Source: Gracilibacter sp. BRH_c7a (GTDB lineage Bacteria > Bacillota > Desulfitobacteriia > Desulfitobacteriales > Syntrophobotulaceae). From it: a stretch of 64,000 nucleotides of DNA. The notes under the pieces are model-generated. The model did no database searches and was not told where the DNA came from. It was given only the letters and a program-made list of their open reading frames with translations. Numbering within the stretch: the stretch's first letter is position 1; each line of letters starts with the position of its first letter. The stretch is from positions 62,001 to 126,000 of the forward strand of contig LOEZ01000053.1 in NCBI GenBank assembly GCA_001516055.1. The letters are read 5' to 3'. The translations under genes were made by a program, and so were the position numbers. Of this stretch, positions 52,294-62,432 are shown piece by piece.

Positions 52294-52908
52294 CTATTCC
52301 TGAATATTATCCAGTAGAGATTGGACTTCTTTAAGACCCTCATCCGGGCTTACTACAAGTAGAATATCACCTATCCTGAGAATATAGTCTGCTCCGGGAG
52401 AAAAGTTCTCATTTCCGTTTCTTACTACTCCAACAACAGTGGCCCCAGTTAGTTCTCTAACTTTAAGCTCCCTTAAAGTACGTCCGACAGCTTTTGATTC
52501 AGGTTGTACTTCAATCTCAGCAACGTCATTCCAGCGCGAAATAAATCTATCGGCATATCCTGTCAGTTTATTCAGTAGATTATCGATCTGTCTATCTATC
52601 TCTCTTCTTTTCTCCAGCAGGTCTTTAAGGTCCTCCATAAAGGATTGAATTTCGTTTTTCTGATTATAGGACCTTAAAAACTTTTCGGCCTGTTTTTTAG
52701 AATTTACTATTATACCAATACCTTGTCTTACTCCAACTACATCTTCACTTTGAAGTATAGCAATAGCTCTGCGGATAGTTTCGGGGGATACATTAAATCT
52801 TCCTGCTAAAGTAGATCTGCCATGTATCTTTTCTCCTTCATGGTACTCTCCTAAAACAATAGAATATGCTATTGAGTTGGCAATTTCTTGGTATCTGGCT
52901 TGTTCCAA
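52294..52908 (-). CDS. GntR/RCK_C regulator resembling the c-di-AMP-responsive BusR
   Basis: 204 residues: an N-terminal GntR winged helix (about 1-70, with GRFNVSPETIRRAIAILQSEDVV), a charged coiled coil (about 75-115) and a C-terminal TrkA-C/RCK_C domain (about 122-204, ending ADYILRIGDILLVVSP). This three-part layout is that of BusR, which binds c-di-AMP through RCK_C and represses osmolyte uptake. It leads the operon with the kinase and is divergent from glutamate 2,3-aminomutase. Start TTG at 52908 with AAGGGA six bases upstream. Confidence 0.82.
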   Translation of the reverse strand: MEQARYQEIANSIAYSIVLGEYHEGEKIHGRSTLAGRFNVSPETIRRAIAILQSEDVVGVRQGIGIIVNSKKQAEKFLRSYNQKNEIQSFMEDLKDLLEKRREIDRQIDNLLNKLTGYADRFISRWNDVAEIEVQPESKAVGRTLRELKVRELTGATVVGVVRNGNENFSPGADYILRIGDILLVVSPDEGLKEVQSLLDNIQE

Positions 52909-56291: not shown

Positions 56292-57551
56292 TCATATATT
56301 ATAGGTTGGATTAGCTGTCATCCCTTCCATATCGGGGTACGCACTTTCACCATGTTGGGTTGTGTCCAATCCCGATACTTGCTCTTCTCCTGAAGCCGTA
56401 AGAGGAGTGATAGCTGAAATAATCTTAAGAATAACAAAGGTTCCGATTCCTGCAAAAGCATAGGTAGCTAATACTGCAATCATTTGGATACCCACTAGTT
56501 CAAAGTTCCCACTATAGAAGAGACCATCAGCTCCACCAGCATTTACTGAGGTAGTGGCGAACAGTCCTGTTGCCAGCGCTCCCCAAGTTCCACCAATACC
56601 ATGGATACCGAAGACATCAAGGGCATCATCGTATCCAAGTTTTTCTTTTAATTTAGCTACAGCCAAGTAGCATATTCCACCGGAAATCAATCCTATGAAG
56701 ATTGCTGCTATTGGGGTAACAAAGGCAGTCGCAGGGGTGATTGCCACCAATCCGGCAATTACTCCGGAGATGGCTCCCAGGACGGTTGGTCGCCCATGAT
56801 ATATCTTCTCTACAATAACCCAACCTAGAAGACCTGCACTGGCTGCAATATGTGTAGTTACAAAGGCTAGGACCGCAATGCCATCGGCAGCCAGTTCGCT
56901 ACCGGCGTTGAATCCAAACCAGCCAAACCACAAGAGTGAACCACCAAGTATTACATAGGGAAGATTATGTGGGATTGTAGGTTCAGATGATTTGTTTAGA
57001 CGTTTACCAATCACAATAGCTGCGATTAGACCGGAAAATCCAGAGCTGATATGAACTACAGTACCACCGGCAAAATCAAGGGCCCCAAGGTTACCTATCC
57101 AACCGCCTCCCCAGACCCAGTGTGCCAGTGGGGCGTAGATGAATAAACTCCAAAGACCTATCAATAATACATAAGCTGGGAAGCGTAATCTTTCAGCGGT
57201 AGCACCTATCATCAATGCAGGAGTTAATACTGCGAACATAAGCTGGAAGATCATAAAAAGCAAAGGAGGAATCCCATCCCCTTCAGCACCTACCAGACCT
57301 ACTCCTCTCAGAAACACGTGGTCCAGATTACCGATAAGAGAACCGGTACTTGATCCGAAAGCCAAGGAATAACCGATAACTACCCACAATATTGTTACAA
57401 TACCAAAAGCCGCAATACTCTGCATCATTATCGATAATACATTACGCCTTTTTACCAAACCTCCATAAAAGAATGCTAGGCCAGGTGTCATGAGAAATAC
57501 TAGTGCCGTACTGACAAGCATAAAGGCAATATCGCCAGAATTGTAATCCAT
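56292..57551 (-). CDS. amtB: Ammonium transporter
   Basis: 419 residues with 11 membrane segments. Amt signatures are FFYGGLVKRRNVL near the N terminus, WVWGGGWIGNLGALDFAGGTVVHISSG (about 145-172, with the first pore His region) and DVFGIHGIGGTWGALATGLFA with the second pore His. It takes up ammonium. No PII (glnK) gene is adjacent, which is unusual because amtB and glnK are often paired. The leader has a promoter with the shared nitrogen motif and a hexaloop/terminator switch. Confidence 0.95.
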   Translation of the reverse strand: MDYNSGDIAFMLVSTALVFLMTPGLAFFYGGLVKRRNVLSIMMQSIAAFGIVTILWVVIGYSLAFGSSTGSLIGNLDHVFLRGVGLVGAEGDGIPPLLFMIFQLMFAVLTPALMIGATAERLRFPAYVLLIGLWSLFIYAPLAHWVWGGGWIGNLGALDFAGGTVVHISSGFSGLIAAIVIGKRLNKSSEPTIPHNLPYVILGGSLLWFGWFGFNAGSELAADGIAVLAFVTTHIAASAGLLGWVIVEKIYHGRPTVLGAISGVIAGLVAITPATAFVTPIAAIFIGLISGGICYLAVAKLKEKLGYDDALDVFGIHGIGGTWGALATGLFATTSVNAGGADGLFYSGNFELVGIQMIAVLATYAFAGIGTFVILKIISAITPLTASGEEQVSGLDTTQHGESAYPDMEGMTANPTYNI

Positions 57552-57586: not shown

Positions 57587-57643
57587 ATTATAAAAAAATA
57601 TAGGCCTCAAAAAAGCTTACGCTTTTTTGAGGCCTCTTTGCCT
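57587..57643 (-). promoter_or_regulatory. amtB leader attenuator with ANTAR-like hexaloop hairpin
   Basis: In the minus-strand RNA a hairpin AGGC-AAAGAG-GCCT (57643 to 57630) has a six-base loop with A at position 1 and G at position 4. Its 3' side overlaps the left arm of a perfect 15-bp terminator stem (57635-57621 with 57616-57602) followed by seven T's. The two structures exclude each other. This is the logic of ANTAR-protein antitermination. The usual first hexaloop was not found. The terminator could alternatively serve the upstream radical SAM gene. Confidence 0.55.
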
Positions 57644-57680
57644 GATTGAGTATAAAAACTTGATGAAACTTTATACCAGT

Positions 57681-57736
57681 ACTATATTATTTCTTTCCCA
57701 ATCTGTAAAGTGTTTTTTTGATTAAATATTGTATAC
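57681..57736 (-). promoter_or_regulatory. amtB promoter with nitrogen motif
   Basis: On the minus strand, TTTACA (57704-57709) and TATAGT (57681-57686) are 17 bp apart. The 12-mer AATATTGTATAC (57725-57736, plus-strand reading) has its centre 49.5 bp from the end of the -10, the same distance as at glnN. Confidence 0.6.
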
Positions 57737-57764
57737 ACGTTTTGCTTGATGCTACTTGTATCAA

Positions 57765-58712
57765 TTAATCCAGTCCCTTTCCCCAAATCTCCAGACCGCA
57801 AGCGGAACACCTTCCACCTTCTGTCTCCACCTTAACTTTCCAATCTCTGGTTATTAATTCAAGTCCGCATTGAGGACAGTAAGTCGTATTCCCATCTAGA
57901 ACATTTCCCATATAGACATAGGGAAGATGTTCTTTGGCAAGCTCCCATAGATGTTTTATTTGTTTAATATCTGTGGCAGGGATATCACTTTTATACATAG
58001 GATGATACCTGCTTAGGTGCCAAGCCACTGGTGCTTTTAAATCGGCTAACCAACGAGCCAAAGATTCAATCTCTTTAGAACTGTCATTTAGGGTAGGGAT
58101 TACTAAAGTTGTAATTTCAGTATGCACTCTGCCCGCTAGTCTTTCTACGGTTTCCAAAACCCATTTCAGTTTACCGCCGGTATATCTAAGGTAGAATTCT
58201 TCTGTAAAAGCTTTGATATCTATGTTAACAGCATCGATAAAAGGAATGATATCTTCAAGGTGCCTGGCTTCAATTATGCCATTACTGACTAAGGCAACCT
58301 TCCCTCCCTGTTTTTTTACCAGAGGTGCAGTGTGAGCAATCATCTCATACCAGACAAGTGGTTCAGAATAGGTAAAGCATAAGCCTATTGATCCCTCTTC
58401 CAATGATGCATAAGCTAATTGTTCAGGCGTAACCTTATGACCTCTTTCATATTTCTGAGAAATCTCATAATTCTGGCAAAAGAAACATCTTAGGTTGCAA
58501 CCATACCCTCCCACCGATAGAATCCGGTTCCCAGGATAAAAATGATATAACGGTTTCTTTTCCATGGGATCGATATGCCAAGCTGCAATTTCTCCATATG
58601 TTAGGGAGACTATCTCCCCTTCTTTACATCCTCTTGCCTTACATAATCCAGTCTGTCCTTCCTGCAGTTTGCAATGTTGAGGGCAAAGGGAGCATTCTAC
58701 TTTCTCATTCAT
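57765..58712 (-). CDS. amrS: AmmeMemoRadiSam system radical SAM enzyme
   Basis: 315 residues. The radical SAM motif is CNLRCFFCQNYEIS (CxxxCxxC). An N-terminal Cys group (CSLCPQHC and GLCKARGC) and a C-terminal zinc-ribbon-like pair (CPQCGLEL, CSACGLEIWG) match the AmrS/PflA-like family TIGR04337. YPGNRILSVGGYGCN and YHFYPG are also typical. Function is unresolved. It overlaps the Memo/AMMECR1 fusion gene by eight bases, so the two are translated together. Confidence 0.93.
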   Translation of the reverse strand: MNEKVECSLCPQHCKLQEGQTGLCKARGCKEGEIVSLTYGEIAAWHIDPMEKKPLYHFYPGNRILSVGGYGCNLRCFFCQNYEISQKYERGHKVTPEQLAYASLEEGSIGLCFTYSEPLVWYEMIAHTAPLVKKQGGKVALVSNGIIEARHLEDIIPFIDAVNIDIKAFTEEFYLRYTGGKLKWVLETVERLAGRVHTEITTLVIPTLNDSSKEIESLARWLADLKAPVAWHLSRYHPMYKSDIPATDIKQIKHLWELAKEHLPYVYMGNVLDGNTTYCPQCGLELITRDWKVKVETEGGRCSACGLEIWGKGLD

Positions 58713-59967
58713 AATACCGCTCTACCTCGAAGCGCCAGAGTTCTACTTCTTCTTCTGGCCATATTCCTGCTTTCTGCTTGGCAATCTCTAATTGGTGTTC
58801 TACCGTGTCCACTCCTTCCAAATGAGGCAACAAGAGTCCCACTTTACCTCCATGACGCACAACAACGCCATATCGCTTTGGATCCAACTCTTCAGAACTA
58901 ATTATTTTCTCCATATCCCCTAAGACATCGACGCTTATGGTTATTAAGGGTAACTCATCTGGTTGGAGAGGCCAGAAGCGCGGGTCTTGAGTACCTGCTG
59001 AGATGGAGTTATGTTTAATTTCCGAAGCGAGGTTTTCGCGTACAGGTTGTACTGTTCCTATACACCCCCGCAGATCCCCATCTTTTTTCAAGGTTACAAA
59101 ACAACTTCTTTTTTCCTTAAGAAGAGGGTCGCCAGGGATAATAAGTTTATCAAAAGGCTGAGCTGTAAGATGATAAGTCAGACATTCCCGAGCGAATCCG
59201 GCTATAGGAGAAGATCGGTAGATCTCAGCAACCAAATATCCTACTCCAAAAGGTCCTTCGTAGGAAAACACCTTCACTGATCCCTCCCTTGCCCCTAACC
59301 CAAAGAGAAGCGAATTGTATCCACACTGACCAGCTTCTTCTACTAGGTCTGAAGGCAGACCTCTAGCTAAAGTAGTATCCTTTTTGAGTGCTTTTACTAT
59401 GATATTGTCAAATTTGGGTCCCGAAGGATGATAAGAATATGGTCCATCCTCTTTAAGTCTATGGGATAGATCTCCACTGGCGATTACGGCACACTTTTGC
59501 GGATAATCATTTAGTGCCTGTCCTACATCACGTCCATACTTCTCCGGCTTATTAAGCGGCATGCTAAACACTATGATTCTCCCGTTCCAGCCCGCTTTCT
59601 TCAGAAAATATAACGGCACTAAAGCTCCATGATCGAGTTCCCCGCGAATAGGAAAACTATCTGGAACTCTTGCCTTTACACTTTCCAGAAGCTCTTTATC
59701 TACTGGATAACTGAATTTAATTTTTTCTGCCCTGAAACGTCCAAAATCTCCTTTTAGTATATCTCCTGCTAAAAATCCCAAACCATCATCAGGGAGAGGA
59801 GCATGTGGTGAAACAATAACGACAGTCTCAACATCCAGACTGATAATTTCTTGACATAGCCTAGCAAACCCATCAATAGTATCCTGACAAACCTTCTCTT
59901 CCCCACGCCCGATTTCTGGAACTAGTATCGGTGGATGTGGGACATATCCAACATAGACCAAACTCAT
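58705..59967 (-). CDS. AmmeMemoRadiSam system Memo-like/AMMECR1 fusion protein
   Basis: 420 residues. The N-terminal half (about 1-265) is a LigB-type fold related to extradiol dioxygenases, starting YVGYVPHPPILVPEIG. The C-terminal half (about 270-420) is AMMECR1, with LRGCIGTVQPVR and RYGVVVRHGGKVGLLLPHLEGV. In other organisms these may be separate genes. Their constant link with AmrS suggests one modification pathway, of unknown substrate. Start ATG at 59967 after GGAGGTG. Confidence 0.92.
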   Translation of the reverse strand: MSLVYVGYVPHPPILVPEIGRGEEKVCQDTIDGFARLCQEIISLDVETVVIVSPHAPLPDDGLGFLAGDILKGDFGRFRAEKIKFSYPVDKELLESVKARVPDSFPIRGELDHGALVPLYFLKKAGWNGRIIVFSMPLNKPEKYGRDVGQALNDYPQKCAVIASGDLSHRLKEDGPYSYHPSGPKFDNIIVKALKKDTTLARGLPSDLVEEAGQCGYNSLLFGLGAREGSVKVFSYEGPFGVGYLVAEIYRSSPIAGFARECLTYHLTAQPFDKLIIPGDPLLKEKRSCFVTLKKDGDLRGCIGTVQPVRENLASEIKHNSISAGTQDPRFWPLQPDELPLITISVDVLGDMEKIISSEELDPKRYGVVVRHGGKVGLLLPHLEGVDTVEHQLEIAKQKAGIWPEEEVELWRFEVERYYE

Positions 59968-60167
59968 AAATACGCACCTCCGATTATTACGTTCGCCGGA
60001 TTATTTAATTTCGTAAAGCTAAGTAATTAACTTCATGAAGTACTTATCTTCATGAAATAATTACCTGCATGAACTATCTTCGTTGAATTATCAAACTTTT
60101 CCTGCTTACATTTTCAATGCTTAGTTTATTATGAAAATATTTATTGATATTTATAACCTCAAAAATT

Positions 60168-60223
60168 AATATTGTATACATAGCAATAACCTACTTGTTA
60201 TTTGTAGTCAATTGTGTTAAATT
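60168..60223 (+). promoter_or_regulatory. glnN promoter with nitrogen motif
   Basis: AATATTGTATAC at 60168-60179 lies upstream of TTGTTA (60195-60200) and TAAATT (60218-60223), which are 17 bp apart. The motif centre is 49.5 bp from the end of the -10. An alternative promoter, TTGATA 17 bp ahead of TAATAT at 60167-60172, overlaps the motif. The region 59968-60167 is otherwise gene-free. Confidence 0.58.
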
Positions 60224-60243
60224 TTTAACATAATATTGTCGCG

Positions 60244-60302
60244 AAAGCAAAGATGCTTTTCCCAAAAACTTTTTTAAGTTTTGGGCTAAGTGTCTTTTTT
60301 TT
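60244..60302 (+). promoter_or_regulatory. glnN leader attenuator with ANTAR-like hexaloop hairpin
   Basis: A hairpin AAAGC-AAAGAT-GCTTT (60244-60259) has A at loop position 1 and G at position 4. A longer hairpin pairs 60249-60271 with 60276-60297, with one internal loop and one bulge, and runs into eight T's (60295-60302). The two share 60249-60259 and exclude each other. The layout parallels the amtB leader. Clostridial glnA genes of type III are known to be controlled by an ANTAR antiterminator. No ANTAR gene is in the window. Confidence 0.58.
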
Positions 60303-60338
60303 ATTTAATCTTTTATATCACTGAAGGGGGATAATAAA

Positions 60339-62432
60339 ATGAAATTATTTGGAAGTAACGTGTTTAATGATGCAGTCATGAGAGAAAGGCTGCCCAAAGC
60401 AACCTACAAAGCTTTGAAGAAGACTATTGATGAGGGACTAGAACTTGATCCCACTGTTGCGGAAATAGTTGCCAGTGCCATGAAGGATTGGGCTTTGGAG
60501 AAAGGAGCTACCCATTTTACTCATTGGTTCCAACCCATGACAGGCCTCACAGCCGAAAAACATGATTCCTTCATCGCTCCTACTTCGGATGGTAAAGTAG
60601 TGATGGAATTCTCAGGCAAAGAACTAATCAAAGGGGAGCCTGATGCTTCATCATTCCCGAGCGGAGGAATTCGTAATACATTCGAAGCTAGAGGATATAC
60701 TGCCTGGGATTGTACTTCACCGGCATTTTTCAGAGAAGATAAAAATGGTAATGTTACACTTTGTATCCCTACAGTTTTTTATTCCTACACTGGTGAATCT
60801 TTGGATAAGAAAACACCTTTATTACGATCTATGGAGGCTTTATCCAAACAAGCCATCCGCCTCGTAAGATTGTTTGGTAACACGAACAGCACCAGAGTAA
60901 TCACTACAGTTGGGCCCGAACAGGAATACTTCTTGATTGATAAAAGCTTTTATGACATGAGGATGGATTTGGTTCTAACCGGACGCACCCTCTTCGGTGC
61001 CGCTCCTCCTAAAGGACAAGAGATGGAAGACCATTATTTCGGAAGTATTAAAGAGCGTATCTCTTCATTTATGAGAGAACTAAATGAAGAGCTTTGGAAA
61101 CTAGGAATTTCAGCTAAAACTCAACACAACGAAGTTGCTCCAGGACAGTTCGAATTAGCACCAATATTTACTACAACCAATATTGCGACAGATCATAATC
61201 AGCTTATTATGGATACTCTAAAAAAAGTAGCACTACGCCATGACCTCGTATGTCTGCTGCATGAGAAACCTTTCGCCGGAGTCAATGGTTCAGGTAAGCA
61301 CAATAACTGGTCTATGAGTACAAATGACGGTATTAACCTCCTGGATCCGGGTACAACCCCTCATGACAATGCTCAATTCTTAACTTTTCTCTGTGCCATA
61401 ATTAAAGCCGTAGATGAATATTCTGAGCTCTTAAGACTTTCAGCATCTAACCCAGGTAATGACCATCGTTTGGGTGCCAATGAAGCCCCTCCTGCTATTA
61501 TTTCTATCTTCTTGGGTGATCAGTTAACAGATATAATCGAGCAGATCGAGAATAACGGAGGTGCCAAGAGTTCCAAGAATGGTGGAACAATTAAAGTAGG
61601 AGTAACTACCCTGCCAGAAATACCCAAAGATAATACGGATCGGAATAGAACTTCTCCATTTGCCTTTACCGGAAATAAATTTGAATTCCGGATGGTCCCC
61701 TCCAGTGCTTCTATCGCCTGCCCGAACATGGTCCTCAATACTATCGTAGCTGAAACTATCTCACAGATAGCAGATAGATTAGAAAAAGCTTCCGATTTCA
61801 ATACTGAGCTTCAGGTCATACTCAAAGAAATTATCTCTAATCATAAACGAATAATCTTCAATGGCAATAACTATTCAGATGAGTGGGTGGTTGAAGCAGA
61901 AAAACGAGGTCTTGCCAATATAAGGAATATGGTAGATACCTTACCCCATTATATTTCTGAAAAAAGCATTAAAGTATTTGAAAACCATGCTGTCTTAGAT
62001 AAACATGAAGTCCATTCCCGTTATGAAATTCTCTTGGAGCAATATTGTAAAACTATCAACATTGAAGCTAGAACTATGATAGATATGGCTAATAGACTTA
62101 TACTTCCGGCAGTTTCTCACTATATCGGTAATTTGGCTACTACGGTTCAGACTATCAAGAGTATTATTCCAGGTGCCGACACCTATGCTCAAGAAGTAGT
62201 TCTTAAAGATATCTCTAGCACATTGAGGTTATTCAAAGAAAAGACTGAAGCTCTAGAAAAAGCTGTTGAAAACACTGAACATGAAGACCTGTACGATAGC
62301 GGAGTGTATTATCGTGATACTGTATTTACAACTATGCAAGAACTGAGGATGCATGGGGATAAGCTTGAAACTCTAGTAGATGCGGAAATTTGGCCGTTAC
62401 CTACCTATGCAGAGATGCTGTTCCTCATTTAA
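60339..62432 (+). CDS. glnN: Glutamine synthetase type III
   Basis: 697 residues, the length of the large type III enzymes, about 250 more than type I. Catalytic-domain motifs include [25 protein letters not shown] and [19 protein letters not shown], and [12 protein letters not shown]. The extra C-terminal helical region (about 500-697) is typical. It makes glutamine from glutamate, ammonia and ATP. Start ATG at 60339 after GGGGG. The leader carries the nitrogen motif and a terminator switch; a strong terminator follows the gene. Confidence 0.97.

Follow-up and report, generated by a model that had tools for sequence, protein, structure and literature searches.

Background

In the NitR-glnA system of solvent-forming Clostridium, an ANTAR gene is linked to that of a type III glutamine synthetase, and a linkage of this kind is also present at some of the glnN loci described here. 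AmiR combines a pseudo-receiver with an ANTAR domain, as does the ANTAR protein of the genome examined in this study. The two differ in that AmiR controls one operon and the present protein, as we read it, a regulon, and in that no AmiC-like partner was found next to the present ANTAR gene when the ANTAR locus was inspected.

The eut leaders of Enterococcus, Listeria and Clostridium, which are targets of the ANTAR protein EutV (Ramesh 2012, PMC3369931; Walshe 2022, PMC8934654), carry a C-G-closed hairpin whose six-base loop (hexaloop) has A as its first base and G as its fourth (A1/G4) and whose 3′ arm overlaps an intrinsic terminator. The known ANTAR target consists of two hexaloops, P1 and P2, separated by 5–12 nt and both reported to be necessary; deletion of P1 or a change in the linker drastically reduced induction (PMC3369931), and lengthening the linker abolished antitermination in vitro (PMC8934654). 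According to the current model of EutV antitermination, a dimer meets both loops in turn (PMC8934654). Dual-hexaloop nitrogen regulons were also predicted by covariance search in Desulfotomaculum and Pelobacter (PMC3369931). Since the accepted two-hexaloop rule underlies the published covariance searches, leaders with one hexaloop would be missed by them. Our search of the literature on NitR/glnA and single hexaloops returned only the 2022 structure paper (PMC8934654), in which a lone hexaloop is redefined as the minimal site for ANTAR binding, single sites are expected only in the absence of a race with the polymerase, and bioinformatics on single hexaloops is called for.

The glnN and amtB leaders

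The window, i.e., the whole stretch of 64,000 nucleotides analysed here, contains two leaders with one short six-base-loop hairpin each, one preceding glnN (60224-60338, plus strand) and the other preceding amtB (57680-57552, minus strand). Their features are listed below; R1 is the covariance model described in the next section.

60195-60223, plus strand: predicted glnN promoter, −35 TTGTTA, 17 bp, −10 TAAATT (consensus scan)
60243-60260, plus strand: single hexaloop hairpin of glnN, putative antiterminator; GAAAGC 60243-60248, loop AAAGAT 60249-60254, GCTTTT 60255-60260 (fold, comparison of leaders, R1)
60249-60303, plus strand: intrinsic terminator of the glnN leader; fold 60249-60297, then U-run (fold, stepwise folding, R1)
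60339-62432, plus strand: glnN, glutamine synthetase type III (PF12437 GSIII_N, 268.5 bits, and Gln-synt_C)
57681-57709, minus strand: predicted amtB promoter, −35 TTTACA, 17 bp, −10 TATAGT (leader scan)
57630-57643, minus strand: single hexaloop hairpin of amtB; AGGC 57643-57640, loop AAAGAG 57639-57634, GCCT 57633-57630 (fold, comparison of leaders, R1)
57590-57635, minus strand: amtB intrinsic terminator, in overlap with the 3′ arm of the hairpin; fold 57635-57602, then U-run (fold, R1)
56292-57551, minus strand: amtB, ammonium transporter (PF00909, 432 bits)

Both hexaloops are of the A1/G4 type with C-G as the closing pair, and in the glnN leader the loop together with the 3′ arm of the hairpin makes up the left arm of the terminator. 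An earlier note on this DNA had described in each leader one C-G-closed hairpin with loop AAAGAN whose 3′ arm doubles as the left arm of a terminator; our coordinates and folds agree with it, and neither leader has a second hexaloop. The terminator folds have an MFE of −21.6 kcal/mol (z −3.4) for glnN and of −26 (z −5.8) for amtB. Folding showed the hexaloop hairpin and the terminator of glnN to be mutually exclusive; in stepwise folding the hairpin appears first and is displaced by the terminator once the right arm is made. A1 and U6 of the glnN loop are also able to pair. The spacing of the glnN promoter, with promoter and start both predicted, is kept in relatives.

We read these leaders as attenuators in which an ANTAR protein would hold a lone hexaloop, equivalent to the P2 half of the known target with P1 absent, allowing readthrough into glnN, amtB and nifH, and we put the probability of this reading at about 0.8. 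The analysis shows the anatomy of the leaders, their mutually exclusive folds, conservation, the regulon, the co-occurrence with ANTAR proteins and the absence of P1; binding, the direction of control and the signal are inferred. A scan of the window by a simple definition of hexaloop plus terminator found 4 cases against 1.6 expected by chance. This window-only scan was dropped as proof, the cases being too few and near chance, and therefore the argument is built on the comparison and conservation of leaders.

Distribution of the element

We compared glnN and amtB leaders from the family and order of the window and from a group of genomes that we take to be Heliobacteriaceae-like (G075 among them), together with glnN leaders from named genomes; the named relatives within the order were Acididesulfobacillus acetoxydans and Desulfosporosinus. 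The hexaloop hairpin occupies the same place in most glnN and amtB leaders of the order and is also present in many glnN leaders of distant Clostridia.

R1, trained on 33 leaders of glnN and amtB, was run on this genome and on those of relatives. The glnN and amtB leaders of the window, themselves part of the training set, scored 52.7 and 50.5 bits, respectively. Elsewhere in the genome, two hairpin/terminator units in series (L271:6580-6830, minus strand) were identified before nifH, one gene for P-II and three for nitrogenase components, with E values of 0.005 and 0.06, the nif leader being outside the training set. One further unit (E 0.0012) precedes a chemoreceptor-like gene with MCP signal and dCache domains. 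In relatives, R1 detected leaders of genes for glutamate synthase, P-II, type I glutamine synthetase and a second amtB, as well as leaders of ABC-transporter binding proteins and of the chemoreceptor-like gene. Judging from the protein sequences, from which the target genes in relatives were named, the R1 targets appear to be nitrogen genes almost throughout. The regulons predicted in Desulfotomaculum and Pelobacter likewise hold amt, glutamine and glutamate synthase, P-II and nif targets; on the other hand, the models used there demanded two hairpins, whereas the elements identified here are single, sometimes serial, each with a terminator of its own.

Several observations concern individual members. 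Two or three serial hexaloop/terminator units, each with its own terminator and with no P1-P2 pair, occur in the nif leader of this genome and in L323, L310, L316, L148 and L141. In the Heliobacteriaceae-like genomes (L203-L209) the unit lies within an operon, between the P-II gene and amtB, and the loops of this group include ATAGGG and ACTGGA. The small chemoreceptor-like gene (L270:1990-2991, G000:C77) is under the same attenuator in relatives too (L314, L334, L337), and a nitrogen-linked sensor with MCP signal and Cache domains was unexpected as a member of a hexaloop regulon. An R1 match on the plus strand of the window (57602-57639) was rejected as a separate element, as it is the opposite strand of the amtB terminator.

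ANTAR proteins in genomes with the leader

Exactly one ANTAR protein is encoded in the genome (PF03861, about 45–47.5 bits against a curated cut-off of 27.3). The earlier note had predicted ANTAR control from the leaders, naming conservation of the hexaloops in orthologous leaders and an ANTAR protein in the genome as the points at which the prediction could fail. Both were found, and together with the match to P2 they lend support to ANTAR control, in which the protein would bind the loop.

Taking a C-G-closed A1/G4 loop in the glnN leader as the strict hexaloop, we searched 49 clostridial genomes in which the glnN locus is named. An ANTAR protein is present in each of the 26 hexaloop-positive Clostridia, and the 7 ANTAR-negative ones are all without the hexaloop (Fisher p 0.003, or 0.0009 when loops starting with G are counted; these values are inflated by shared ancestry); the remaining 16 have an ANTAR protein and no strict glnN hexaloop, 3 of them having a G1 loop. 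Among 41 relatives, R1 matches were present in 29 of the 32 ANTAR-positive genomes vs 1 of the 9 ANTAR-negative ones (p 1.4e-5, inflated likewise). The one match in an ANTAR-negative genome (G016, L338) is partial, has no hexaloop and was taken as chance. G006 has neither ANTAR nor a glnN-leader hexaloop, and in G018 and G059, both incomplete assemblies, the leader is present and ANTAR was not found. The ANTAR gene directly adjoins glnN, in divergent orientation, in three distant Clostridia (L113, L158, L161) and is close to it in G009 and G019.

The link to ANTAR might be incidental, with the hairpin serving as antiterminator for another RNA-binding protein or a small-molecule sensor, or acting autonomously. 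The ANTAR gene of this genome is unlinked, and some glnN leaders in ANTAR-positive genomes have no hairpin. However, A1/G4 with a closing C-G pair is the very loop rule of ANTAR targets, the element resembles P2 of eut so closely that the sequences are nearly the same (e.g., eut gagcAATGAAgctc, aagcAAAGAGgctt), and hexaloop leaders both co-occur with ANTAR genes and adjoin them. As for a riboswitch, a hairpin of 4–6 bp and a loop of 6 nt fall short of the size of a typical aptamer, and Rfam gave no relevant match in the window and 14 loci at the gathering threshold, or in the glnN leader at E up to 10. We consider an incidental link improbable, and the glnN and amtB hexaloops are, by their sequence, presumably bound by the ANTAR protein.

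This 188-aa protein (G000:C55) consists of a receiver-like domain and ANTAR, with Gly at the position of the phospho-acceptor Asp54. The Asp is lost in 37/39 ANTAR proteins of single-hexaloop genomes vs 0/22 EutV-type proteins, another respect in which the eut system differs besides its P1. The best sequence match of the ANTAR protein is Rv1626 (1s8n, E 6.9e-13), and it also matches AmiR (1qo0 chain D, E 6.8e-5) and EutV. The RNA-contact residues of EutV are partly kept (R142, K143, E160, Y164, R168, M172 and R175) and partly lost (K147 to Q, K149 to V, N173 to T and R177 to T). K149 of EutV touches G4 of the loop, and its loss is common to a clade of ANTAR proteins from this family and from some Desulfitobacteriaceae (L242:4005-4571 and orthologues in L243-L258). 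In several genomes the K149-less protein is the only ANTAR, and the loop is conserved there nonetheless.

Absence of the P1 hairpin

P1 and its linker, which are part of the eut target, have no counterpart in the nitrogen leaders, where the hairpin is close to the predicted 5′ end. With P1 defined identically for both sets (C-G closure, linker 1–16), it was detected in 0/125 nitrogen leaders vs 16/29 P2-like sites in clostridial eut loci (p 3e-14). As a positive control, the same scan was applied to 13 clostridial loci around EutV-like genes, and tandem P1-P2 was found in all 13. A looser search (A1/G4, stem of at least 3 bp, 45 nt upstream) gave 13/125 leaders vs 12.5 expected from shuffles, and under several definitions P1 showed no excess over shuffles. 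The "reduced or divergent version" suggested by the earlier note can thus be specified as the P2 half of the dual motif.

The leaders could still be standard dual-hexaloop ones in which P1 was overlooked because its stem is weak or its loop unusual, as P1 stems may be as short as 3 bp and some P1 loops of eut start with G and escape the scan. Both the strict and the loose counts above argue against this, as do the short distances from the −10 box to the start of the hairpin, which leave little room (medians of 16 nt in order-level glnN, 13.5 in distant glnN and 27 in amtB). We regard an overlooked P1 as quite unlikely. By these predicted starts, the hairpin, 10–30 nt past the −10 box, falls within about the first 10–30 nt of the transcript, and because it is so near the −10 box, P1 with a linker of 5–12 nt would rarely fit.

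The element is therefore set apart from the published dual-hexaloop family by the absence of its defining feature. We take it to be a P1-less, 5′-proximal variant of ANTAR antitermination that would work like the P2 half. Since EutV antitermination needs P1 (PMC3369931), a site that lacks it might be bound but fail to antiterminate. Conservation of the one-hairpin form in many Clostridia suggests that half of the target is enough. The nitrogen leaders are conserved single-hexaloop sites that do race with the polymerase, and such natural variants make the question of what P1 is for directly testable.

Loop and stem conservation

Hairpins overlapping the terminator were listed by loop size, with loop letters unrestricted. 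Six-base loops dominate and other sizes and classes are rare; the eight-base class is the same hairpin minus its closing pair. Among the hexaloops, A1/G4 was found in 37/44 for glnN, 34/36 for amtB and 17/23 for distant glnN. Position 3 is unconstrained over 111 elements (A 53, T 36, C 15, G 7); position 5 always holds a purine, and 106 elements have A at position 2. The stems vary but stay paired: 75 cells changed on both sides vs 24.1 in shuffles, a figure that leans towards structure because the input had been picked for C-G-closed stems of 4 bp or more. At loop position 1 the glnN leader of G032 has U, and several leaders of distant Clostridia have G (GANGGY; L031, L105, L149, L155, L169, L171). 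These U1 and G1 loops loosen the A1 rule.

That the leaders are plain terminators with an A-rich tract upstream, the hexaloop being a by-product of the symmetry between A-tract and terminator, would fit A1 and A2 being able to pair with the U-run and the near-chance number of two loops per 64 kb, but is very unlikely, as the 5′ arm, needless for a terminator, covaries with the 3′ arm, position 3 is free while G4 is fixed, other loop sizes and classes are rare, and the targets are nitrogen genes.

Motif upstream of the promoters

The earlier note had also pointed to a 12-bp motif shared by the two promoters, which is confirmed here and kept at a fixed distance from the −35 box in relatives.

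60168-60179, plus strand: AATATTGTATAC, the 12-bp motif preceding the glnN promoter (TGTATAC/GTATACA counts in relatives)
57725-57736, minus strand: the copy preceding amtB, which reads GTATACAATATT on the strand of the gene, in reverse orientation with respect to it

TGTATAC or GTATACA lies in the 60 bp preceding the −35 box in 37/54 glnN leaders (0.36 expected) and in 20/37 amtB leaders (0.34 expected). The spacing to the −35 box is 17–18 bp in glnN and mostly 23–24 bp in amtB, and the TGTATAC-containing motif is conserved across the order at this fixed distance. The motif TGTATACATTAT is also present upstream of the nif operon of this genome (L271, about 6862-6850, minus strand). The 12-bp motif is likely a site for a DNA-binding regulator, and the putative binder is probably an activator.

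Proposed mechanism

On the preferred reading, that of ANTAR-controlled attenuators with a lone hexaloop, RNA polymerase would first make the short hexaloop hairpin (C-AANGRN-G) near the 5′ end of the transcript. If the hairpin is left unheld, the terminator sharing its 3′ arm would form and transcription would stop. When nitrogen is short, presumably, the ANTAR protein would grip the loop via G4 and stabilise the hairpin, and the polymerase would continue into glnN, amtB and nifH. The hairpin would thereby take the role that P2 has in the known ANTAR target, with the P1 recruitment hairpin dispensed with. Since its pseudo-receiver is without the Asp, the protein may be switched by a partner or a ligand instead of phosphorylation; an ANTAR protein of this type may be dimeric without phosphorylation, in which case it could do without P1, the hairpin to which the 2022 model assigns recruitment. 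A second regulator at the TGTATAC motif probably sets initiation.

We lean, less firmly than for the leaders themselves, towards a wider proposal, namely that in Clostridia whole nitrogen regulons (glnN, amtB, glnA, gltB, P-II, nif and the chemoreceptor-like gene) are widely run by a second mode of ANTAR antitermination that is independent of P1, in which an ANTAR protein with an Asp-less receiver, perhaps always dimeric, acts on one hexaloop within the first 10–30 nt of the transcript. The single-hexaloop leaders would then suggest a general clostridial nitrogen control that has no Rfam family.

Neighbouring genes

Between amtB and glnN (window 57765-59967) there are a radical-SAM gene and a second gene which, by sequence, resemble the AmmeMemoRadiSam pair (AmrS and AMMECR1-type). 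Another gene of the window (52294-52908) encodes a protein that joins a GntR-type DNA-binding domain to a TrkA_C ligand domain and possibly responds to a dinucleotide such as c-di-AMP.
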